NCBI GenBank assembly: GCA_005862225.1
Contig: SZXV01000010.1
Coordinates: forward strand, 1-64,000
DNA: 64,000 nt
Reading direction: 5' to 3'
From: Chlorobium sp.
Lineage (GTDB): Bacteria; Bacteroidota; Chlorobiia; Chlorobiales; Chlorobiaceae
The notes under the pieces are model-generated. The model saw only the letters and a program-made list of their open reading frames with translations. It did not search any database and was not told the origin of the DNA. The position numbers were made by a program, and so were the translations under genes. Of this stretch, positions 22,891 to 42,985 are shown piece after piece. Numbering within the stretch: the stretch's first letter is position 1; each line of letters opens with the position of its first letter.

Positions 22891-23325
22891 CAACTGTTCG
22901 ATATGCTCCTGATGCAATGCTGAAAGAGGAACCATCTCTGCGGCGGCGTTGAGCAGATCCTCCGTTTCCAGTTCCCTTCGGTTGTCGCGAAATGCGGGAA
23001 ACATGGCATCGTTGACCAGCGCCTGCAGTTCGGCACCGACGAACCCCTCGGTTGCCGATGCGACACCGCCAAGGTTGAACCGTTGCGAGAGCATGGTATA
23101 GCCGCGCTCTCTGAGATCAACTTCAAGTATTTTTATCCGCTCGCCGTGGGTGGGAAGATCGAGGAAAAAGACGTCATCAAACCGGCCTTTGCGCAGAAGT
23201 TCGGGGAGAAGGCGCCGGACGTTGTTGGCCGTGGCAAAGACCCGGCTTGCCGTGCCGCTGTCGCCCATGGAGCCGGCAAAGGCTTTTTCGATCTCGTCAA
23301 CCCAGAGCACGCAGGGCGCGATAAC
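22891..23325 (-). pseudogene. Partial duplicate of the AAA ATPase gene at 41438
   Basis: About 435 bases nearly identical to 41522-42007, running from Walker B ([12 protein letters not shown]) to the C-terminal helices (LLNAAAEMVP). The N-terminus and Walker A are absent. A 51-bp in-frame deletion removed 17 residues (starts FLTWMQEKTAPV) between two copies of GTGGCGAA-like sequence. Both boundaries are sharp. On the right the copy joins TGATGGG heptamer repeats (23340-23370). The open frame of 182 residues is read out of context at both ends, so it should not be taken as a gene. Confidence 0.9.
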
Positions 23326-29563: not shown

Positions 29564-29650
29564 AGTTAAATTTCTTTTATTTCGATGTTATTTTTTTGAA
29601 GTTATGATATTTTTTTTGAAGCAGAAGTCTGCGGTCTTTTTACAATGAGA

Positions 29651-29780
29651 CATAACGGTTGAGGCTATGGCAAGTGCGGGATTAGATTGCTGCTCAACTG
29701 TCAGCCAGCACAAATGCATGTAAAGATTTCAAATGTTTCAACGTAGAAGCAAACCCGCATTTGCTATAGCGTTTGTTATG
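29651..29780. other. attC-like cassette recombination site 2
   Basis: Long imperfect inverted repeat. The left arm CATAACGGTTGAGGCTATGG continues to GCAAGTGCGGG. The right arm, read on the minus strand, is CATAACAAACGCTATAGCAA and then ATGCGGG. The outer CATAAC boxes are complementary and the inner arms pair with a few extrahelical bases. A stop codon (29776-29778, antitoxin gene) lies inside the outer box, as in integron gene cassettes. The CATAACAAACGC side is close to the outer arm of Vibrio repeats. No experimental support is available here. Confidence 0.6.
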
Positions 29781-29931
29781 CACTGGGCTTTGTTGAATTC
29801 TCCAGTTTCTTCTTCCTGAAATACTCAACAATCTCTTCTTTTGTCATTTTGGAGAGCTTTTCACTCAATTTCTCTCGCTGATCACGCATGAATTTTACTG
29901 CGTCAAATGTTTTCTTAGCTGTTGTCTTCAT
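29776..29931 (-). CDS. Small antitoxin-like protein downstream of the PIN gene
   Basis: 51 residues (begins MKTTAKKTFDAVKFMRDQRE). It is a charged helix-rich protein with KLSEKLSKMTKEEIVEYFRK, typical of short antitoxins paired with PIN genes. Before the IS630 insertion the PIN frame would have read through KELEIRSPRDFMTYEDNS and stopped 17 bases inside this gene, so the two were overlapping partners. Its own stop codon lies inside the attC-like site. It was too short to be found by a length cut-off. Confidence 0.6.
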   Translation of the reverse strand: MKTTAKKTFDAVKFMRDQREKLSEKLSKMTKEEIVEYFRKKKLENSTKPSA

Positions 29932-31600: not shown

Positions 31601-31671
31601 GCTATAAAGGTAGTAAAAATCTCTGAAATTTTGTCTGATTTTCGAGGCCGAGCATTTTTTTTAGCCTTGTT

Positions 31672-31768
31672 GTTAACGAATAGCAACAGCCGCCGTGCCA
31701 GCCCTTGTGCGTCAGCGTGTGCGTTGGGAAAAAAGGGCTGGCATGGTCGGTCTGTTGCATGTTAGCGG
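31672..31768. other. attC-like cassette recombination site 1
   Basis: Inverted repeat of about 24 paired bases: GCAACAGCCGCCGTGCCAGC on the left, and CTGTTGC...GGGCTGGC on the right (AAGGGCTGGCATGGTCGGTC). Outer boxes are GTTAAC (left) and GTTAGCGG (right, 31761). The minus strand reads CCGCTAAC...GTTAAC, the layout of an attC with R'' and R' boxes and a few extrahelical bases. It is immediately past the last gene of the 7-kb cassette. The 10-mer GTTAGCGGTT occurs here and, inverted, at 38862-38871. Confidence 0.6.
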
Positions 31769-31792
31769 TTTTATTCATTTATTATCAATATC

Positions 31793-32884
31793 TTAATTCA
31801 TGTGTTTGCATGGTAAAGTAAATGAGTAATTTTTACACAATTCTTTGCAAAAACGACAACCATTATCAAAATTAGTAAGTAAACTATTTGAATTGCAAGT
31901 AGATAAAGCCTCTTCTACCAATAAATTTGAAGTATAATTTAAGTTACTATCGTGATGATATAGGTCAATTGCAAATAATTTTGAAATATAATGCTCTAAT
32001 GCCAATTGAATCATATTATCGTTTTCAAACTTTTCCTGATGTATAATATTTCTGTCTATCTGAATTTCAAACTTACTGTTTAATAACTCTTTATTGTTCG
32101 GATAATCTATAATGATGTTTCTATTATTAGTGTCAATAATAAAAATTTTACGAATACAAATATCTGAAAATAAACAAGAAAAATGATATGAATTAACACT
32201 ATTATTATGGTTTAAATTTATAAAACCAAATCCATGATCTTTGTAGATATTATGTCCAATAACCATATTTTGAGTATAAGTAGATACTAACTTTGCAGAA
32301 CCTAATAACTCTGTTGCCAAATATAATTGATGCGGTATTTCAATCGTGAAAATATGTGGCGGTATAGTTTCTGTAAAACCTCTCATTTCAAGTGTATCTT
32401 GTGTTCTATTTTTACAAAAGAAACTAAACATCAGTTTTGGAATTATTTCATTTTGCCTAATTAATTCAATCATTTTCTTTGTGGCTTGGGAAAATAAGTA
32501 ATTTTGCATTACCTCAATATAGATATTTAAAGATTTTAACCATTCAATATCTTTGAGTTTGGTAACTAATGGCTTTTCTACTATGAAATATTTGAAACCT
32601 CTACTCACCATTTCTTGAATAACGTTTTTATGTGTTTCTGTTGGTGTGCAAATATCTATTAATGAACAAGATACATGGTTGTATTTTAAGTCATAAATCG
32701 TGATAAAAGAAATAAATTGCGAATATTGCATTACAAGTTCCTTTATTTCTTTTTCAACAAAATTTCCTGTAATAATTAATATATTAAACAACTGCTTATT
32801 TCTTATTTCTAAATAAGCATTCAGATGTAATAAAGTGGCTTTCCCAGAACCAACTATTATAATGTTTTGTAAATGGTTTTTCAT
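31793..32884 (-). CDS. Gfo/Idh/MocA-like NAD(P)-dependent oxidoreductase
   Basis: 363 residues. The N-terminal Rossmann segment (IIIVGSGKATLLHLNAYLEI, then SLIDICTPTETHKNVIQEM) and the Gfo/Idh EKP-type motif IVEKPLVTKLKDIEWL are clear. A C-terminal alpha/beta domain is less conserved. The last 30 residues hold CRFCKELCKNYSFTLPC, an unusual cysteine-rich end that might bind metal. It would oxidise or reduce a hydroxyl of a sugar-like molecule. It overlaps the radical SAM gene upstream by ATGA. AT-rich (about 30% GC by eye), like its neighbours. Confidence 0.8.
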   Translation of the reverse strand: MKNHLQNIIIVGSGKATLLHLNAYLEIRNKQLFNILIITGNFVEKEIKELVMQYSQFISFITIYDLKYNHVSCSLIDICTPTETHKNVIQEMVSRGFKYFIVEKPLVTKLKDIEWLKSLNIYIEVMQNYLFSQATKKMIELIRQNEIIPKLMFSFFCKNRTQDTLEMRGFTETIPPHIFTIEIPHQLYLATELLGSAKLVSTYTQNMVIGHNIYKDHGFGFINLNHNNSVNSYHFSCLFSDICIRKIFIIDTNNRNIIIDYPNNKELLNSKFEIQIDRNIIHQEKFENDNMIQLALEHYISKLFAIDLYHHDSNLNYTSNLLVEEALSTCNSNSLLTNFDNGCRFCKELCKNYSFTLPCKHMN

Positions 32885-34224
32885 ACAAATTGCTTAAATG
32901 ACAACGAAAGTCCATTTTCCATAACTAACATCGGATAATGTATTTTCCCGTCTGGTGCAACTAATTGTATATAGCCCTCTTTATTATCATAAAATTTTAT
33001 TGTGTCATAAATACTATTTGTTAGTTCTTGTATCCATCGTTCAATTATTGCCATAAAATACTGACAACGCAAATTATCCCATTCATTTAAAGCATCATTA
33101 GAAATAAATAAGTAACGTTGTACACTTCCTCTACATATGGTTCTTGCAAAACAATCTTTACATTGCATTTGATAATTATCTAAATATCTTTTGCTTAATA
33201 ATTCATTTTTGTTTTTATTAAAAAGAATGTTATCGTTATCTAAATGACCAATTTGTAAATTATCAAAATCCTGATGTAAATGATGAATTATTGCATTTGA
33301 TACAACAATCTCACCATTGGACAAAATATTAAGAAAATTCATTTTGTTGTTAGGTCCCCCTGCCCTTAAATGATCCAAAGGCAATACTTTAACATGAATT
33401 CCTTTTGCCTCTGCTATTGGTATTAAGTTAAATACAAGATTTACATAATCTTCTACTGATGGTGCAACATCTTTTAAAGAAACCGCTCTTCCATTAAAAG
33501 TATGTAGATGTTCTAACATTAAACGATTTGTATATTGACTTACAGTTGGTAATAAGCAAGTATTTAATTCGTGAACATTATTCTTGGTTACAGTTGCACG
33601 TAACGCAACTCTCCGTGAAACCAAAGAAATTGTTTCCATAGAATTAAGCATACTGCTTAGTGAGTTAGATTCTGTTAATAATGGCTTTTGTTTGTTGTGG
33701 TTTATTAGACCATCAAATGAAATCTGAAATACTAAATTCTTAAATTTAAGTAATTTATTAAGCAAAGTGGAATCCATTACACCATTAGTAACTAAACATA
33801 CTTTAATATAAGGGTACTTTTGAGCCTCTTCAAGCATTGCAATTAAAGCCACTGGATTTTGTGTAGGTTCGCCACCCCACCCGAAAATTATTAATTCTTT
33901 TTCCGTTTGTTTAGCAAGTGCTTTAACAGCATTACGTACCATTTCGACACTCATAACACCCAAACCACCAGCCGGTTTTACATAACAATATGGACACTCC
34001 ATATTACATTTAGTAGTCAGAGTAACTGCAGCTGCATTTGCCTCGCATATAAAATCTGGTTCAGGAATTATATTTATTGCTTTTAATTTTGATTCAATTA
34101 TTTTATCTAAATTTTCCTGTGGTTTGAAAACAGCAAATTCTTTATCTACTGCATTGTAGAAATAATAAATTCCTTGTCTTTCAGTACCAAGCCATCCATT
34201 TTTAACATGAAAATTATTAATCAT
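32881..34224 (-). CDS. Radical SAM enzyme with SPASM-like C-terminal cysteine region
   Basis: 447 residues. CxxxCxxC at C73, C77 and C80 (TKCNMECPYCY) binds the [4Fe-4S] cluster that cleaves SAM, and the GGEP motif (GWGGEPTQNP) contacts the methionine. A second cysteine group (QCKDCFARTICRG about 345, LRCQYF about 378) resembles a SPASM auxiliary cluster site. The N-terminal about 60 residues may be a small binding domain. SPASM enzymes modify peptides or sulfatase-type proteins. Here no precursor peptide or sulfatase is close, so the substrate is unknown. It overlaps the following Gfo gene and is ten bases after the fusion gene. Confidence 0.88.
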   Translation of the reverse strand: MINNFHVKNGWLGTERQGIYYFYNAVDKEFAVFKPQENLDKIIESKLKAINIIPEPDFICEANAAAVTLTTKCNMECPYCYVKPAGGLGVMSVEMVRNAVKALAKQTEKELIIFGWGGEPTQNPVALIAMLEEAQKYPYIKVCLVTNGVMDSTLLNKLLKFKNLVFQISFDGLINHNKQKPLLTESNSLSSMLNSMETISLVSRRVALRATVTKNNVHELNTCLLPTVSQYTNRLMLEHLHTFNGRAVSLKDVAPSVEDYVNLVFNLIPIAEAKGIHVKVLPLDHLRAGGPNNKMNFLNILSNGEIVVSNAIIHHLHQDFDNLQIGHLDNDNILFNKNKNELLSKRYLDNYQMQCKDCFARTICRGSVQRYLFISNDALNEWDNLRCQYFMAIIERWIQELTNSIYDTIKFYDNKEGYIQLVAPDGKIHYPMLVMENGLSLSFKQFV

Positions 34225-34234
34225 AAATCACAGA

Positions 34235-37200
34235 TTATCTTGTTTTTTGCAAATACAATTCATTGAATTGATTGGCTACATCTTGCCAATTATAATATTT
34301 TGCACGCTCAAATGCGTTTTGTCCCATCTGTTTTGTTTCGTTGGGATTGTTTAACATCCATTCAATGGCTGATGCTATCGATTCTGGTGTTGAATCTACA
34401 ATAAAACCAAAATCATTTATACCAATCTTGTTAGTTTGTAAAATATCCTTAGCACCATCTGTTAAAGTTGTAATAATTGGTTTGGCTCGTGCCATTATTT
34501 CGGGTATCACCATTCCAAAAGGTTCGTACAAAGATGGTATTACACCAAATAATGATTTGTCAATCATTTTTAGTTTTTCAATTCCTGTAATACCCTCATT
34601 TGTGGCAAGAATTTCTATATTAGGAAGTTCGTTAATACTACTCAATAATCGTTGCACATAAATTCGCCTTGATTCAATTGTAATATCAGTATTACCAAAT
34701 ATTATGAATTTTAATAATTCGTTTTCATCAAAATTCTTCTTTTTATAGAGTATTTTTATTGCTGATAATAATAAATCAAATCCTTTCTCATTAGAAATAC
34801 GTCCGTACGAAATTATTATTCTTTGGTTTGAATCTATTGAATGAAATGGGATTGTAAAATGTTCATTTCCAATTCCATTTTTAACACAATGAATAATCCC
34901 TTTATAATCTGGTGCTATTGCAAGTAACTCATCTTTCATACTTAAAGATGGAACTGTGATTATTGAGTTTTCATTTATTGCTGCTTTTTCTAATTCCGTT
35001 AAATTATTGACATTATCATGGGGATTTATTGATTTACTTCTTGTGGAAAGTAACATATGAAAAGTTGAAATAACATGAAACCCTAAATTTCTCAAACCTA
35101 TTGAACGTCTTGGTATTTCAATAAAACCATGAAGATGAATTACACTGTTTTCAGGACTGAAATTATTTTTAATAAAATCAACAACATCGTCTCCAAACTT
35201 TATTCTTTGCTTATGAACCTCAAAATCATTTGCAAAAAGAGTATTTACAGTTTCATCTGTAAATTTAATTTTGATAACTCTTAATAATCCATTTTCATAT
35301 AGGTATTCACCATTTTGTTCGTTTTTGATACATGGTGAAATCCAATATACAACTTCGTCTTGCTTTATCTGTTCTTTGCACAAATTATAAACAGCCCAAC
35401 CTATTCCCCCTATTAAATGTTCAGGGTCTTGATACGAAACATGTACAATTGTTTTACTTATACTATTTTTTTGAGTAATTGAAGAAATGTTTAATTTCTT
35501 TTGCTCAAAATGAATTTCTTTTGATTTCAGTCCATAAAATACAGAACTCGGACGACAACCATTTTTACAATTTAGCGGTGGGAATGAAAATATATTTTCT
35601 CTACTTTTCTGTAATTCCTTCTTTGACAAATTTATATGTCCAATTTGTGTTGTATTGAAGTTAGAGCAAGTTGTAAAACAAGGATATATTTTGCGATCTG
35701 CTCCAATAAGTAAATAATTAGTTACATTCCAGCATTTATCTGCAAAACAAATACTTAAATCATCATTAAATATATTCACTAAATTTGTATTCTTTTCTAA
35801 AAAATGATAAAATTCTGGTATTTCTTTTTCAATCGCTATTAATTTTTTGAACCAAGTTTCTTTTTGTGAAGTACTTATATAAGATAAAGTATAAGGTGAA
35901 TGAACATTTTTGTCATTCGCCATTGGAAAAATCGAAAATTTGAAAAACCTTTTTTTTGCATAATAATTTGGTATAACATTCCAAAGTGAAAACAGATTTT
36001 CTGCTAAACTAATGCTTTTAAAAATATTCTGATTATTGTATATCATGGTAACTCGCAAAAATGATACGGAACTTTCATAAAGGTATATTTTTATGTTATT
36101 CAAAACATTATCAAATAGGTTTGCACCTTTATCAATGTTAAAAGAATCTGAACATTCACTGTCTAACGAAATACTAATTTCATCTATTTTGCTTATCCAA
36201 TCACCGTTTGGAATTATAGTACCATTAGTTATTAATCTGATTCTTGTTCCACTAAGGTTATATCGTAAATAATCAATAACTTCGTTAAATTCAAATTGAT
36301 TTTCTTTGAATAGTGTTGGTTCTCCACCTCCTGCAATAAGAATTTCCATTGGTTTAATTTCAACAATATATTTCAAATCATCAAATTGAATTGATTGATT
36401 ATTATGAATTGAATCATAAGTACACCATTTACAATTCAAATTACATTTATTAGTAAGATGCAATTCAAGAAGAGTAATATTTTCTGAATGAAACAAACCA
36501 GAATTAAGTATTTGTTCACAAGCCTGTTTTGCTATAATAACAGGTTGTTCAGGTTCAAGAGTACTGCAATGAAAGAATTTTTTTACTCTATCAAAATAGG
36601 TTTCATAAAATATTTCCAAATTAGGATATTTATTAGACTTATATAAATCAAAAAAACTATTTTGAACGGCATACCTTATTAAATCAGGCTTATTAATGTT
36701 ACCTTCTAAAATTTTTTCTAAATATTCGAAAACTTTGTCAGTCATCCATAAACTTTCTAATTCTACTTTTTTGTGTTCTTGTGCAGAATATTGTAGTTTC
36801 TCTTCATTTGCAAAATTTAACATAAACAGCATTTCATCAAGCATAGTATGGGGGCTATGTTTTTGACGCTCTAATATTTTATTTCTTAATTCATACTTTA
36901 TTTCAATTGGAATATCTCTCCGTAATGCAATATTTTTCCATAATTCCAATTTGTTTGTTTCAATTAGTGGGATTAATTCGGAAGATTTTTTTAAGACTCG
37001 TGAAAGTACTCCTTCATGGTTAGGATAATCATGAAGCATTGCATTTTGTGCTTTATAAAACAATGATTGTATTTTGTTTATGTGATTATCGTAATTGATT
37101 GTTATTTCTTTCGCTGTTTGTTCCCATAACTCTACTATTTTATTGATATTCGTAGAATATAGCATATTATTACCTTCCAAACATATATCTTTGGCGGTAA

Positions 37201-37936
37201 GTAAAAAATCAAGTGCGCTATTTAATATTTCAATATCATCTGACGAATAAATATTTTTTTCTACCAAAACATTAATATCTGTATCCGATAAAAATCTTTT
37301 ATTAGAATACAACATTGCTATTGCTATTATTTGCTGTATCCATCTCAAACCTCCTGTAAAATATTTTACATCTCCATAACTGATTCCGATTGGAAATTCT
37401 TTTGTCGGATGATATGTTCTCACAAGTGGCGAAAAATAATCAGATGCCATAAATTCTAAATGCAAATCAACACCAGCAAGTGTTGAAATTAAAATGTGTC
37501 CATTATTTGTGTTAATAATAAACGGATCATTAAGAACTTGTTCTTCAAATATTTTTCGATTTCCACAAACAAAACGAATACTTAACAAATCCATTGGATT
37601 TACTCTTACTCTTTTCCATGATTTTATCGCAATAGTCCAAGTATATTTTGAGAAAACATTATAAATTATCTCTTGAAAATCCAATAATTTATCCAAAGGT
37701 AAATTGCCATCGTCAATTATAGTAAAATCAGTATCAGATATACTTACCATAGTTCTTCCGCCAGCACTACCATAAGTTAAAATAGCAACATTATCTTGTA
37801 AACCAGATTCTTTTAAGATTGATTCTGAAAGATTTACAAGCAGGTCAAAATTATTTTTCGCAATTTCTCTTCCTTGTATTGATTTTTGCAGAATTTTACT
37901 ATTTTTTATATTTTCCTTTTCAGTAATATTTTCCAT
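34235..37936 (-). CDS. Tri-functional nucleotidyltransferase - radical SAM - GT4 glycosyltransferase fusion
   Basis: 1233 residues in three parts. (1) About 1-260: a nucleotidyltransferase-like fold with GSAGG (56-60) and SDTDF (67-71, acidic pair D68/D70), followed by helices. (2) About 480-800: radical SAM with C498, C502 and C505 (TNKCNLNCKWCTY), GGGEP (536-540), and auxiliary cysteines C730, C735, C753, C757, C790 and C794. (3) About 828-1233: a GT4-type glycosyltransferase with LIGGIGWAVYNL (841-852), GRISNEKGFDLLLSA and the E-x7-E motif in EPFGMVIPEIMARAKP. The linker 270-480 is helical. I know of no characterised enzyme with this order. It shares an operon with an AKR, a second radical SAM and a Gfo protein. 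Confidence 0.85.
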   Translation of the reverse strand: MENITEKENIKNSKILQKSIQGREIAKNNFDLLVNLSESILKESGLQDNVAILTYGSAGGRTMVSISDTDFTIIDDGNLPLDKLLDFQEIIYNVFSKYTWTIAIKSWKRVRVNPMDLLSIRFVCGNRKIFEEQVLNDPFIINTNNGHILISTLAGVDLHLEFMASDYFSPLVRTYHPTKEFPIGISYGDVKYFTGGLRWIQQIIAIAMLYSNKRFLSDTDINVLVEKNIYSSDDIEILNSALDFLLTAKDICLEGNNMLYSTNINKIVELWEQTAKEITINYDNHINKIQSLFYKAQNAMLHDYPNHEGVLSRVLKKSSELIPLIETNKLELWKNIALRRDIPIEIKYELRNKILERQKHSPHTMLDEMLFMLNFANEEKLQYSAQEHKKVELESLWMTDKVFEYLEKILEGNINKPDLIRYAVQNSFFDLYKSNKYPNLEIFYETYFDRVKKFFHCSTLEPEQPVIIAKQACEQILNSGLFHSENITLLELHLTNKCNLNCKWCTYDSIHNNQSIQFDDLKYIVEIKPMEILIAGGGEPTLFKENQFEFNEVIDYLRYNLSGTRIRLITNGTIIPNGDWISKIDEISISLDSECSDSFNIDKGANLFDNVLNNIKIYLYESSVSFLRVTMIYNNQNIFKSISLAENLFSLWNVIPNYYAKKRFFKFSIFPMANDKNVHSPYTLSYISTSQKETWFKKLIAIEKEIPEFYHFLEKNTNLVNIFNDDLSICFADKCWNVTNYLLIGADRKIYPCFTTCSNFNTTQIGHINLSKKELQKSRENIFSFPPLNCKNGCRPSSVFYGLKSKEIHFEQKKLNISSITQKNSISKTIVHVSYQDPEHLIGGIGWAVYNLCKEQIKQDEVVYWISPCIKNEQNGEYLYENGLLRVIKIKFTDETVNTLFANDFEVHKQRIKFGDDVVDFIKNNFSPENSVIHLHGFIEIPRRSIGLRNLGFHVISTFHMLLSTRSKSINPHDNVNNLTELEKAAINENSIITVPSLSMKDELLAIAPDYKGIIHCVKNGIGNEHFTIPFHSIDSNQRIIISYGRISNEKGFDLLLSAIKILYKKKNFDENELLKFIIFGNTDITIESRRIYVQRLLSSINELPNIEILATNEGITGIEKLKMIDKSLFGVIPSLYEPFGMVIPEIMARAKPIITTLTDGAKDILQTNKIGINDFGFIVDSTPESIASAIEWMLNNPNETKQMGQNAFERAKYYNWQDVANQFNELYLQKTR

Positions 37937-37976
37937 ATTATCAATTAGTTATAATTATAAAACTGTATTTGGGCAT

Positions 37977-38813
37977 TTAATCAAAATTAAAATTATCAGG
38001 ATTTGCACCAATACGATAGTTGCAATTTAATTGGTCAATAGTTATTATTTCTTCACAGTCCAATTCAAAATCAAAAATATTTGCATTACTCTCAATTCGA
38101 CTTTTATTAATTGATTTTGGAATTGTGACAATGTTTTTTTGTAAATTCCAACGTAATACAATTTGAGCAACATCTTTGTTATATTTTAAACAAATGGATT
38201 GTAATTCATTAATATTGAATATTTTACCCTTCATCAATGGACTCCATGATTCTAATTGTATTTTATTATCAATGCAAAATTCAAGTAACGGTTGCTGCAC
38301 TAAATATGGATGAAATTCTATTTGATTTACCATCGGTATAATTTCAGTACTATAAATCAAATCTTTCAAGTGGTGAATTAAAAAATTGCTAACTCCAATA
38401 GCCCTAATACATTTTTGTTTATAAAGAGTTTCTAATGCTCGCCAAGTATCTTTATACTTGTCTTTAACAGCCCAATGGATTAAATATAAATCAAGGTAAT
38501 CTAATTTCAAATTTTTCATTGTCATTTCAAATGCTCTTAGAGTAGAATCATATCCCTGAAAAGAATTACTAACTTTGCTTGTTATAAAAATTTCTGTTCT
38601 GGGTATATTACTTATTCTAACCGCATTGCCAATGCTTTTTTCATTTCCATATACATATGCTGTATCTATAAGTCGATAACCATATTGCAGTGCAAAAATT
38701 ACTGCATTAAAAACTTCATATCCCTCTTTGGCATTAGATGTTCCAAGTCCAAAATAAGGCATTGCAATTCCATTATGCAATTTGACAGTTCCATTTAAAT
38801 CTGTGATATTCAT
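37977..38813 (-). CDS. Aldo/keto reductase
   Basis: 278 residues of the AKR TIM barrel. The catalytic tetrad is seen in RLIDTAYVYGNEKSIG (Asp and Tyr), IFITSKVSNSF (Lys) and LYLIHWAVKDKYK (His). NADPH-binding segment RWNLQKNIVTIPKSINKSRI is present near the C-terminus. It reduces carbonyl groups of sugars or aldehydes. It is the first gene after the att-like site at 38862, only about 50 bases from it, and is followed by the fusion gene (40-base gap). Confidence 0.9.
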   Translation of the reverse strand: MNITDLNGTVKLHNGIAMPYFGLGTSNAKEGYEVFNAVIFALQYGYRLIDTAYVYGNEKSIGNAVRISNIPRTEIFITSKVSNSFQGYDSTLRAFEMTMKNLKLDYLDLYLIHWAVKDKYKDTWRALETLYKQKCIRAIGVSNFLIHHLKDLIYSTEIIPMVNQIEFHPYLVQQPLLEFCIDNKIQLESWSPLMKGKIFNINELQSICLKYNKDVAQIVLRWNLQKNIVTIPKSINKSRIESNANIFDFELDCEEIITIDQLNCNYRIGANPDNFNFD

Positions 38814-40416
38814 TAAAAATGATTGTATTAAAAAATCTAATTGTGTATTGCGATTTTTGATAACCGCTAACTCCTTTATATATGCACCGCATCACACTCA
38901 AAGGTGCATAAAGCCAGCTATTCTGGCATGCTTTATACACTTTTAGGTGTACATAATATTTTTGCAAATTGTCAAATGGACTGGAAATTTTTAGTAAACT
39001 CTGTTCGCATACGTGGGTATAGATTTCCGTCGTCTTACTGCTCTTATGCCCTAAGAGCTCTTGTATGTATCGTAGATCCGTTCCTGCTTCCAGTAAATGT
39101 GTTGCATAAGAGTGCCGCAACCAATGAAGCGTTACTGGTTTTTTGATTTTTACATGATCGAGTGCATGTTTTAAGACTTTTTGCAAGCTGGTTTCGCTGT
39201 ACTGTGTACCAGGTCCCTGACCCTCAAACAACCAAATCCTGGGGCGATATATTTTATAATATTCCCGCAACATTACAATCACTTTGTCCGATATGGGAAT
39301 GACTCTGTCTTTCTTTCCTTTTGCATTGACTATTATCAGTAAATGCCTTTTTGCATCAACATTCTCAGGTTTGAGATTCAACAACTCTCCCCGTCGAAGA
39401 CCACAGGCATAAATCAAGCTCAACATCGTACGGTGTTTGAGGTTCTGTGATGCCTGAAGTATAGCTGCAACGTCCTCCTTGCTCAGCACGTTGGGCAGCT
39501 TATGTTCTGGTCTTGGCCGATCGATCTGTTCTGTTATGAACATTGAACCTTGAACTGTCTCGAAAAACAATTTTGCTGCGTTAACAGCCTGATTTTGATA
39601 TGATTGGCTTAGCTTCTTCGGTAGCATATACTGGTGAACGAACCGCACCATATCATCATTGGTCGCTTCAGTACTCCTTTTGGGTTTAATAAACCTCAAA
39701 AAAGTTGTAATGGCTTGTATATAGGTCTTTATCGTAGATTCACTGTATCGCTTGTGCTCCATCCACTGTTTGAAGGCGGCAATTTCATCATCGTTGACTT
39801 CGTCCAACGACGGCAAAACGGTAATAAATTCAGTTGCCGCGTAGTTCAATGCAGGATTTGGCGATAACGCAATTATGGTTTTTATATTTGTGATACGTTG
39901 ACCAAAGTAATTCTTTAACAAGTCAATGTTTTTGCCGTAATTAGGTATGGCCCAGCAAAATTTATTGCTGTTCCACCTCACATATTTGAAGGTACGGATG
40001 AACTGTATATCCGTCTCATTCTTAGGCATTTTAACGGTAATTTGTTTCGGGGATATTTCGATAGCGATTCCGTTGTGTTGCGTTACATTTTGCAGATCTG
40101 CTTTTGCTGCAATTTTCCCTTCAGGTCGTGTCATTGCTGAAGGTGGTGGCACCGGTGGTTCATTGGTAGCTTTCGTTAGCTCTTCGGTACCTGACATGGT
40201 TTCTGAACCTGCAGGGTCTGGTACGACTATATCCGGAAACAGCTTCTTAAATTCGCCCAAAGCTTCCTAGGTGAACGGGATATGCCATGCTCTGAGTGTC
40301 TTACTCCAAGCAGCACCTTCAATATGCTTTATCTTATTTATAATAAAATCATTATAGGCGAAAACGAGTTTCAGCCTATCCTCGCCCAGTTGATTTATTT
40401 TGCTGGTCTGAATCAT
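38773..40416 (-). pseudogene. XerC/D-like tyrosine recombinase with amber codon 50
   Basis: The gene begins at ATG 40416 (MIQTSKINQLGEDRL), with AAGGAG 10 bases upstream. Codon 50 (40269-40267) is TAG, in frame with the remaining 497 codons; a TTG at 40260 could restart translation. Two small Rad52-like/arm-binding repeats follow one another (WSKTLRAWHIPF and WNSNKFCWAIPNY). A SAM-like core domain (DEIAAFKQWMEHKRYSEST) and the catalytic domain come next, with ACGLRRGELLNL (Arg), LHWLRHSYATHLLEAG (His/Arg) and LLGHKSSKTTEIYTHV (His, Tyr). The last about 60 residues are read from the att-like region; homologues end near ISSPFDNL. The large IntI insertion before H-L-R-H is absent. Confidence 0.85.
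38862..38960. other. att-like site next to the recombinase gene
   Basis: On the minus strand, after the recombinase core ends, comes a palindrome TAAAGCATGCCAG-AATAG-CTGGCTTTA (38909-38935) and then GTTAGCGGTT (38871-38862). The cassette genes start about 50 bases further on. The same 10-mer, inverted, closes the cassette at 31761-31770. This is the position expected for an attI-type primary site. Confidence 0.55.
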
Positions 40417-41437: not shown

Positions 41438-42985
41438 TTAATCTTCGGTTTTGTTTGACGTGGCCAAAGCATTCCGGTCGTCGGAGGCGTTGCGCGCCTG
41501 TCCGTTTGTGACCATCGTCCTCAACTGTTCGATATGCTCCTGATGCGATGCCGAGAGGGGAACCATCTCTCCGGCTGCGTTGAGCAGATCCTCCGTTTCC
41601 AGTTCCCGTCGGTTGTCGCGGAATGCGGGAAACATGGCATCGTTGACCAGCGCCTGAAGTTCGGCGCCGACGAACCCCTCGGTTGCCGATGCGACGGCAC
41701 CAAGGTTGAACCGTTGCGAGAGCATGGTATAGCCGCGCTCTCTGAGATGGACTTCAAGTATCTTTATCCGCTCGCTATGGGTAGGAAGATCGAGAAAAAA
41801 GACCTCATCAAACCGGCCTTTGCGCAGAAGTTCGGGAGGAAGGCGGCGAACGTTGTTGGCCGTGGCGAAAACGAATACCGGTGCGGTTTTTTCCTGCATC
41901 CAGGTAAGAAAGGTGGCAAACACCCGGCTTGCCGTGCCGCTGTCGCCCATTGATCCGGCAAAGGCTTTTTCAATCTCGTCAACCCAGAGCACGCAGGGCG
42001 CGATAACCTCGGCAATCCGGATGGCTTCGCGAATATTCTGTTCGCTGGAACCGAGCAGACCGCTGAAGATGGCGCCGACATCCATTCTCAGCAGCGTCAT
42101 CCCCCAGTGGCCTGCGGTTACTTTTGCACAGAGGCTTTTTCCGGTTCCGGGAATCCCGATGAGACCCACCCCTTTGGGCATGCTGAGGCCATACTCGCGT
42201 GCATCCTGGCTGAACGCCTCATGGCGCTCGTCGAGCCACGCTTTCAGTGCCCCAAGTCCGCCGACGTTGTTCATGGATCCCGTATAGGGGTAGAGTTCGA
42301 GAGCGCCGCTTTCACGGATGATGTGCCGTTTTTCGTTCAGCACCTGCCGGACGCTCCGTTCGTCGAGCCCATGGCCTCCGGCAACGACGATGGCTTTGCG
42401 AAACGCCCTTCCCGCTTCGACGATGGAAAGACCGAGTGCGCTTTCGACCAGACGTTCGCGCAAGCCATGCGTGGCGTTGTCGAGTGCCCGCGTCGAGCGG
42501 GTTTCCCGATCGAGCAGTTCCAGCATCTGTTTGCCGTCGGGCTTGCCGACATCGATGGTTGGAATGTCGTGACGAAGTTCGACGGGAAGCGCAAACTGGG
42601 GGCTGGTGATGATAATGTTCACCGTTTCGCTGCGGAAAGGAAGACGCGATGCGAGGTTCCGCAACATGCGTGAAACCTTGCGGCTATGTTCCCAGAAATG
42701 GTGAAAGTCTTTGAGCACGAATGTTGCGGAGCCCTTGTAGTCGTCGATAATGTCAAGCACCGTTTCCGGGGTGGCCGCGAGTTTACTGAAGGTTGCCGCA
42801 GGTTCGCGCAGATGGCGGAACTGGTCGCCGATATCCCAGGTGATGAGCCCCATGCCTTCAGGCCACTCGCTTGATTGCGACCAGCCGGCAAGCGTGCGCA
42901 TGGCCTCCTCTTCATCGATGGTTGCGAGGTGTATGACGGCTACCCGCGCGTCAATATTCAGTTTGAGTTCGTCGAGCCAGGCCAT
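41438..42985 (-). CDS. Ycf46-like AAA ATPase
   Basis: 515 residues. The N-terminal half (about 1-240) has the degenerate domain of Ycf46-like proteins. The AAA module has Walker A GIPGTGKS (about 281), Walker [12 protein letters not shown], sensor [14 protein letters not shown] and the arginine-finger segment RKGRFDEVFF, then a C-terminal helical lid. All catalytic residues are intact, unlike the copy at 22.9 kb. It should be a remodelling ATPase, with the partner probably the adjacent Hsp70-like protein or the helical 44654 product. It lies 27 bases after the Hsp70 gene. Confidence 0.88.
   Translation of the reverse strand: MAWLDELKLNIDARVAVIHLATIDEEEAMRTLAGWSQSSEWPEGMGLITWDIGDQFRHLREPAATFSKLAATPETVLDIIDDYKGSATFVLKDFHHFWEHSRKVSRMLRNLASRLPFRSETVNIIITSPQFALPVELRHDIPTIDVGKPDGKQMLELLDRETRSTRALDNATHGLRERLVESALGLSIVEAGRAFRKAIVVAGGHGLDERSVRQVLNEKRHIIRESGALELYPYTGSMNNVGGLGALKAWLDERHEAFSQDAREYGLSMPKGVGLIGIPGTGKSLCAKVTAGHWGMTLLRMDVGAIFSGLLGSSEQNIREAIRIAEVIAPCVLWVDEIEKAFAGSMGDSGTASRVFATFLTWMQEKTAPVFVFATANNVRRLPPELLRKGRFDEVFFLDLPTHSERIKILEVHLRERGYTMLSQRFNLGAVASATEGFVGAELQALVNDAMFPAFRDNRRELETEDLLNAAGEMVPLSASHQEHIEQLRTMVTNGQARNASDDRNALATSNKTED

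Follow-up and report, generated by a model that had tools for sequence, protein, structure and literature searches.

A predicted nucleotidyltransferase–radical SAM–glycosyltransferase fusion encoded in a four-gene integron-type cassette of Chlorobium sp.

Characterized enzymes of the GlnD/GlnE superfamily attach a nucleoside monophosphate to a protein tyrosine. In sedentary chromosomal integrons, the median coding sequence is 362 bp, and most cassettes carry a single coding sequence (PMC5371416). Reverse integrons have been described from Treponema and Chlorobium phaeobacteroides (PMC3607928, PMC6557892). Here, we analyze P0001, a 1,233-residue protein encoded in a 64,000-nt stretch of Chlorobium sp. 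DNA (GenBank assembly GCA_005862225.1, contig SZXV01000010.1, positions 1 to 64,000; referred to as the window). Its single reading frame appears to combine a GlnD/GlnE-like nucleotidyltransferase (NTase), a helical region, a radical S-adenosylmethionine (SAM) module, and a GT4 glycosyltransferase, and the gene lies in what is very probably one integron-type cassette. The individual parts are known; the module arrangement is, as judged from sequence, new, and the cassette is unusually large. Coordinates are window positions, and the cassette, its genes and ends, and the adjoining recombinase gene are all on the minus strand.

The P0001 gene is read from an ATG at position 37,936 down to 34,235 as one uninterrupted frame with zero internal stops. 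It is separated from its upstream and downstream neighbors by 40 bp and 10 bp, respectively, a tight, operon-like spacing. These coordinates and the single 1,233-residue frame had been given exactly, without the strand, in an earlier note made from the letters of the window. Based on the open frame, Pfam, and hhalign, the three-module architecture is almost certainly correct. Such a long frame could stem from a misassembly or from a gene fusion that happened recently by accident, and the fact that a second copy of P0001 was found in none of the searched collections would fit an artefact of this kind. However, the assembly is 99.96% complete and consists of 13 contigs, the gene lies in the interior of one of 332 kb, and its frame is not broken by any stop, frameshift, or intergenic gap. 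The GC content at third codon positions (GC3) is also uniform, at 0.18 in the NTase, 0.165 in the radical SAM, and 0.186 in the GT4 module. The three cassette neighbors have values of 0.18–0.22, the recombinase gene 0.43, and the chromosomal gene that follows 0.66. Equal GC3 over the three parts argues against the joining of two genes with different sources. The earlier note had named an assembly artefact of two genes as fatal to its reading, and we found no sign that two genes had been joined. Nothing points to a misassembly, the open reading frame (ORF) is real, and an artefactual origin is hardly credible.

The N-terminal module (residues 1–255; 37,172–37,936) was assigned by hhalign, by alignment with GlnD and GlnE (alignment A2), and by comparison of a structural model. 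Residues 1–457 have no Pfam match above the cut-off. Two of the three sub-threshold matches in this region are NTase-related and occur in the correct order, namely Polbeta at residues 50–94 (E = 0.06 with residues 1–457 as the query and 0.05 with residues 1–181) and GlnD_UR_UTase at residues 189–247 (E = 0.024). The single P0001 sequence aligned with a set of 22 GlnD- and GlnE-like proteins drawn from Bacteroidota genomes with an hhalign probability of 96.5% (E = 7e-10, residues 44–250). As controls, the reversed sequence, five shuffled sequences, and three unrelated sequences all yielded 0.6% or less. The probability was 90.7% against the GlnD-like set alone and only 4.1% against the GlnE-like set alone. 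The core motif G56-S-A-G-G-x6-S-D68-T-D70 (37,727–37,771) contains GSAGG from residue 56 and SDTDF from residue 67. Further along, VKYFTGGLR (residues 190–198; 37,343–37,369) corresponds to the GlnD/GlnE hallmark K..GGLRDI, except that W stands in place of D199. Alignment A2 shows G56, G59, S67, D68, D70, G125, K191, G195, and R198 to be invariant in P0001 and both families.

An AlphaFold2 model of the NTase built with the GlnD/GlnE alignment had a predicted local distance difference test score (pLDDT) of 68 and a predicted template modeling score of 0.63. The top Foldseek matches in the PDB were 1V4A (E = 1.8e-4, probability 1.00) and 3K7D, which represent the two halves of GlnE from E. coli. 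Lower matches included MNT antitoxins and aminoglycoside nucleotidyltransferases (ANT(4'), AAD(9), and AadA). The Foldseek result is support and not independent proof, because the model was made with GlnD/GlnE rows. Together, the alignments indicate that the N-terminus of P0001 is a predicted nucleotidyltransferase of the GlnD/GlnE superfamily that is neither GlnD nor GlnE. It is followed by a helical region of unassigned family (residues 256–470; 36,527–37,171) that has no Pfam match and in which helices are predicted with low confidence; AlphaFold2 run on residues 1–480 without an alignment yielded a pLDDT of 37.

The radical SAM module (residues 471–830; 35,447–36,526) was assigned from PF04055, which matches residues 494–590 with 38.4 bits (cut-off 29.5; E = 1.8e-9), and from a tree. 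It contains the cluster motif C498-x3-C502-x2-C505 (36,422–36,445) and a GGGEP motif starting at residue 536. Six auxiliary cysteines (C730, C735, C753, C757, C790, and C794; 35,555–35,749) resemble those of Twitch/SPASM domains. The seven-cysteine SPASM domain PF13186 gave no match in P0001 at E = 0.01, and the number and spacing of the cysteines are unlike SPASM, so this region would be Twitch-like at most. In the tree, the module groups with proteins that we refer to as family A with support of 97/98, a grouping that is uncertain because the branch is long; identity to family-A members is 25–29%. Family A consists of stand-alone proteins in Chlorobiaceae, Nitrospirae, Prevotellaceae, Margulisbacteria, and a Lachnospiraceae (P0011, P0012, and L061–L067). 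At several loci, their genes come first in three- or four-gene operons composed mostly of radical SAM genes.

An operon of three or four genes encoding mostly distinct radical SAM proteins recurs at L051 (571–6108), L052 (8737–12604), L061 (9713–14771), L063 (9632–13386), and L067 (276–6003). These loci span Chlorobiaceae, Nitrospirae, and Prevotellaceae, and neither a precursor peptide nor a sugar gene was found there. Separately, one genome of the genus (G055; L053, 2099–5308) carries another radical SAM gene followed by a GT9-type glycosyltransferase gene and, judged by eye, a possible FkbM-type methyltransferase gene; this trio is perhaps a glycan-modifying cluster.

The C-terminal GT4 module (residues 831–1233; 34,235–35,446) contains the strongest domain of P0001, PF00534 (residues 1032–1210; 79.7 bits, cut-off 26.4; E = 2.5e-22), preceded by PF13439 (residues 842–1022), which falls just under its cut-off. 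The motifs GGIGW (residue 843), GRISNEKG (residue 1045), and E1138-x7-E1146 (EPFGMVIPE; 34,499–34,525) are present. P0001 did not reach any NCBIfam glycosyltransferase subfamily; the best was GlgA-type, with 66 bits against a cut-off of 302. Each of the three segments thus has a family match, through Pfam for two and through hhalign for the NTase, and profile searches of this kind were what the earlier note had proposed. All the motifs that it listed (GSAGG, SDTDF, CxxxCxxC, six auxiliary cysteines, and E-x7-E) could be located. Its statement that all key residues are present holds for D68/D70, CxxxCxxC, and E-x7-E, but not for the NTase as a whole, in which T62 and W199 replace a near-invariant Glu and Asp.

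The fusion appears to be rare. Full-length P0001 has no second copy in 100 related genomes, plasmids (partial matches only), phages, or viral contigs including IMG/VR. Residues 1–815 searched against 394 genomes of the phylum produced only radical SAM-type matches, and none among the matches listed covered the NTase. A radical SAM family profile matched 3 of 98 genomes of the class; the long frame occurs only in the window's own copy (1,237 aa in this survey), the other two proteins being 441 and 443 aa. A peptide-pattern scan of ~85,000 species genomes found no close copy, and it rules out close copies only, because exact 8-residue peptides were required. The NTase part alone had no matches on plasmids at E values up to 10. 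Neither a radical SAM/glycosyltransferase fusion nor an NTase/radical SAM fusion was matched in the open-licence literature. The module order and its apparent rarity, both put forward in the earlier note, therefore hold across the genomes, plasmids, phages, and literature searched, and P0001 is best described as a predicted new arrangement of known parts.

The genomic context, which the earlier note had missed, says more about the function of P0001 than the fusion does by itself. The gene order on the minus strand is XerA-like recombinase, aldo/keto reductase (P0004), P0001, a second radical SAM protein (P0002), and a Gfo/Idh/MocA-like protein (P0003), which makes P0001 the product of the second gene of a four-gene block. 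The GC content along this block is 26–31% (27% for the block as a whole), compared with 45–58% in the rest of the window. DNA homology to six congeneric loci stops at 38,868–38,869 in five of them, at G^TTAGCGG; at the sixth, it stops a few bases later, with the core common to both. Beyond the G^TT junction, the DNA differs in each of the seven arrays. This comparison places the end of homology within G^TTAGCGGTT in an attI-like junction region (38,861–38,950).

The opposite end is marked by an attC-like hairpin (31,671–31,771; 93 nt, −54.7 kcal/mol) with R'' AACCGCTAAC at 31,770–31,761 and R' GTTAA at 31,677–31,673, recognized by pattern and complementarity. The strict attC pattern (RYYYAAC...GTTRRRY) missed this site, and a looser pattern detected it. 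The first ten bases of the cassette have their reverse complement at +7101 (10 of 10 bases), at the base of this hairpin. In the other six arrays, the complement of the cassette start is found at +870, +888, +1067, +1703, +1833, and +2600 (9–10 of 10 bases); as in the window, it forms the base of an attC-like hairpin in most of them. The homology break and the complementarity between start and R'', in line with the GC content and the hairpin, indicate that the genes for the aldo/keto reductase, P0001, P0002, and P0003 are very probably a single integron-type cassette of about 7,194 bp (31,677–38,870). The first cassettes of the other six arrays are ~0.9–2.6 kb, and that of the window is several times longer.

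The array continues from 31,600 to 26,418 with genes for a PIN protein, an IS630-type transposase, a Fic/Bro-N protein matching PADLOC PDC-S04, and an AbiE pair, and with a second attC-like site (about 29,645–29,783). Parts of an AAA ATPase gene that are 93–96% identical flank the array at 22,891–23,325 and 41,522–42,007, the copy at 22.9–23.3 kb being truncated. Rfam returned no match anywhere in the window.

The tyrosine recombinase gene adjoining the attI-like region (38,773–40,260) was classified as XerA-like using profile models and comparison with relatives. Full-length copies with 88–93% identity were located at six sites, spread over four congeneric genomes (L084–L089). The recombinase of these relatives stops after ~413 aa; the window copy has lost this stop and runs into the cassette (38,773–38,953), and a TAG at about 40,267–40,269 breaks its N-terminal repeat region. 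The window recombinase may be inactive, or a later start may be used. Identity as IntI was rejected: TIGR02249 scores 197.8 bits (cut-off 265), and the protein lacks ~40 residues of the IntI-specific region when compared with IntI4 (2A3V). Of 65 genomes in the genus, 13 contain true IntI genes; none was detected in this genome at E = 1e-40. A XerA-like recombinase next to an integron-type array, with the same junction in six more copies, may represent a second kind of integron platform.

The first gene of the cassette encodes P0004 (37,977–38,813), a DkgA-like aldo/keto reductase (PF00248, E = 1.2e-44; DkgA model 270 bits, cut-off 425). Downstream of P0001, P0002 (32,881–34,224; 447 aa) is a second radical SAM protein with CxxxCxxC and C-x2-C-x5-C motifs (PF04055, E = 2.1e-13). 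The start of the P0003 gene (31,793–32,884; PF01408, E = 3.1e-10) overlaps the stop of the P0002 gene by 4 bp. P0003 ends in a Cys-rich tail (GCRFCKELCKNYSFTLPCKH; 31,793–31,870) that is unusual in the Gfo/Idh/MocA family and is perhaps a metal site. Gaps of 58, 40, 10, and 28 bp leave no space for a peptide precursor in the cassette, and the only ORFs outside the four genes are two small ones overlapping attC, so that no precursor-peptide ORF was identified.

We tentatively propose that the cassette encodes a pathway for a modified, glycosylated, sugar- or cyclitol-like small molecule, made by one trifunctional enzyme within a four-gene operon. In this proposal, a biosynthetic operon would have come from an AT-rich donor and been captured whole, in one integron-type cassette, by a Chlorobiaceae bacterium. 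Redox reactions on hydroxyl or keto groups would fall to the reductase and the Gfo/Idh/MocA protein, and the radical SAM parts of P0001 and P0002 would abstract hydrogen from unactivated carbons, leading to dehydrogenation, epimerization, or deoxygenation. The GT4 domain would then move a sugar from an NDP-sugar onto the product. The NTase could place a nucleotide on a hydroxyl of the metabolite, for activation or self-protection; alternatively, it could modify a protein tyrosine and thereby regulate the pathway in the manner of GlnE and GlnD. Since GlnD/GlnE members act on protein tyrosine, activation of the substrate, as the earlier note suggested, is one possible reading only. With the modules fused, a reactive intermediate would not have to leave the protein. 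A more specific form is doubtful, in which one and the same intermediate undergoes nucleotidyl transfer, radical C–H chemistry, and glycosyl transfer by P0001, within a complete four-gene pathway to a nucleotidylated or glycosylated metabolite, and the pathway moves between species in a single cassette. Sugar-type chemistry is favored by the aldo/keto reductase and Gfo/Idh families in the cassette and by the antibiotic nucleotidyltransferases among the lower Foldseek matches. It is also favored by the neighbors of two relatives: the Lachnospiraceae family-A gene (L062) lies near genes for a DegT-type aminotransferase, a GT2, an MFS transporter, and a Polysacc_synt_2 NDP-sugar enzyme, and a more distant Bacteroidetes relative (L068) lies near genes for a DegT-type aminotransferase and a B12-radical SAM enzyme.

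Several observations weigh against this proposal. The known GlnD and GlnE enzymes have protein substrates, not sugars. In alignment A2, T62 and W199 of P0001 stand at positions where GlnD/GlnE have a nearly invariant Glu and Asp, and because these residues are missing, the NTase could be inactive or structural. The placement of the radical SAM module with family A is uncertain, as noted above, and family-A operons are often without any sugar gene. A close relative of P0001 was not found in the searched collections, so no conservation argument can be made for any single residue. Finally, the best NCBIfam match of P0002 is a peptide maturase, PapB, with 71 bits against a cut-off of 340.

This last match would fit a peptide or protein as the substrate. 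As in the maturation of ribosomally synthesized and post-translationally modified peptides, the radical SAM parts would cross-link, the GT4 domain glycosylate, and the NTase nucleotidylate a substrate encoded elsewhere in the host. PapB is a ranthipeptide maturase, the radical SAM modules of both P0001 and P0002 match many peptide maturase models, such maturases commonly carry auxiliary cysteines, and GlnD/GlnE-type NTases modify protein tyrosines. However, the NCBIfam matches are all far under their cut-offs, the four genes include no peptidase or exporter, and a portable cassette would need its substrate in every new host. We down-weighted peptide modification because a fitting precursor is lacking in the cassette, and we consider it unlikely. 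Alternatively, the cassette could serve an anti-phage or conflict function, its enzymes producing an effector (a modified nucleotide or sugar) or altering a target in the host upon infection. Many integron cassettes have such a function, and the same array carries the PIN, AbiE, and Fic/Bro-N proteins. There is also weak likeness to prokaryotic viperin models and to a solved viperin-like enzyme, as well as a GT4-conflict match. The latter is below its cut-off and below plain glycosyltransferase family matches, and neither the reductase nor the Gfo/Idh protein had a PADLOC match. The viperin likeness is at the superfamily level and covers the radical SAM core only; viperin was down-weighted because its NCBIfam score is low (36.8 bits, cut-off 180), and viperin identity was rejected. 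Overall, a defense role seems improbable.

The deviations at two nearly invariant NTase positions would also fit another arrangement, in which mainly a glycosyltransferase and a radical SAM enzyme act as a pair on cell-surface or storage glycans and the NTase is a regulatory remnant without activity. GT4 gives the strongest domain match in P0001, and another radical SAM protein in the genus adjoins a GT9-type glycosyltransferase. Yet the metal-binding D68/D70 and the remainder of GSAGG...SDTDF are intact, and an operon with two reductases exceeds the needs of a glycan glycosyltransferase, making a glycan role distinctly unlikely. We retain the small-molecule pathway as our tentative proposal; the cassette hints at a portable pathway for a sugar-like compound. 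If the three parts of P0001 share one substrate, the protein would be a compact assembly line in which GlnE-like nucleotidyl transfer is joined to glycosylation and radical chemistry. The placement of four genes in one 7.2-kb cassette would imply that integron-type arrays can take up and transfer entire small pathways, beyond single short genes.

Compared with known systems, the P0001 NTase resembles GlnD/GlnE in its core (G-x2-G-G/R-x6-S-D-x-D), an LL..RF..GN segment, K...GGLR, and a helical lid. It differs in having no HD or ACT domains or second NTase, in its fusion to radical SAM and GT4 modules, and in the E62-to-T and D199-to-W replacements. The radical SAM module clusters with family A, whose members are proteins of 390–480 aa with a different N-terminus and no fused NTase or glycosyltransferase. 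PF00534, E-x7-E, the GGIGW loop, and GRISNEKG are shared with GT4 enzymes of the glycogen synthase (GlgA) and MshA types; unlike these, the P0001 module is fused to two further enzymes and reaches no subfamily model. The array resembles reverse chromosomal integrons in that the recombinase is transcribed toward the cassettes, with attI past its 3' end, attC-like hairpins, and matching cores. In contrast to those integrons, the recombinase here is XerA-like without the IntI-specific insert, and the first cassette is 7.2 kb long and carries four genes.

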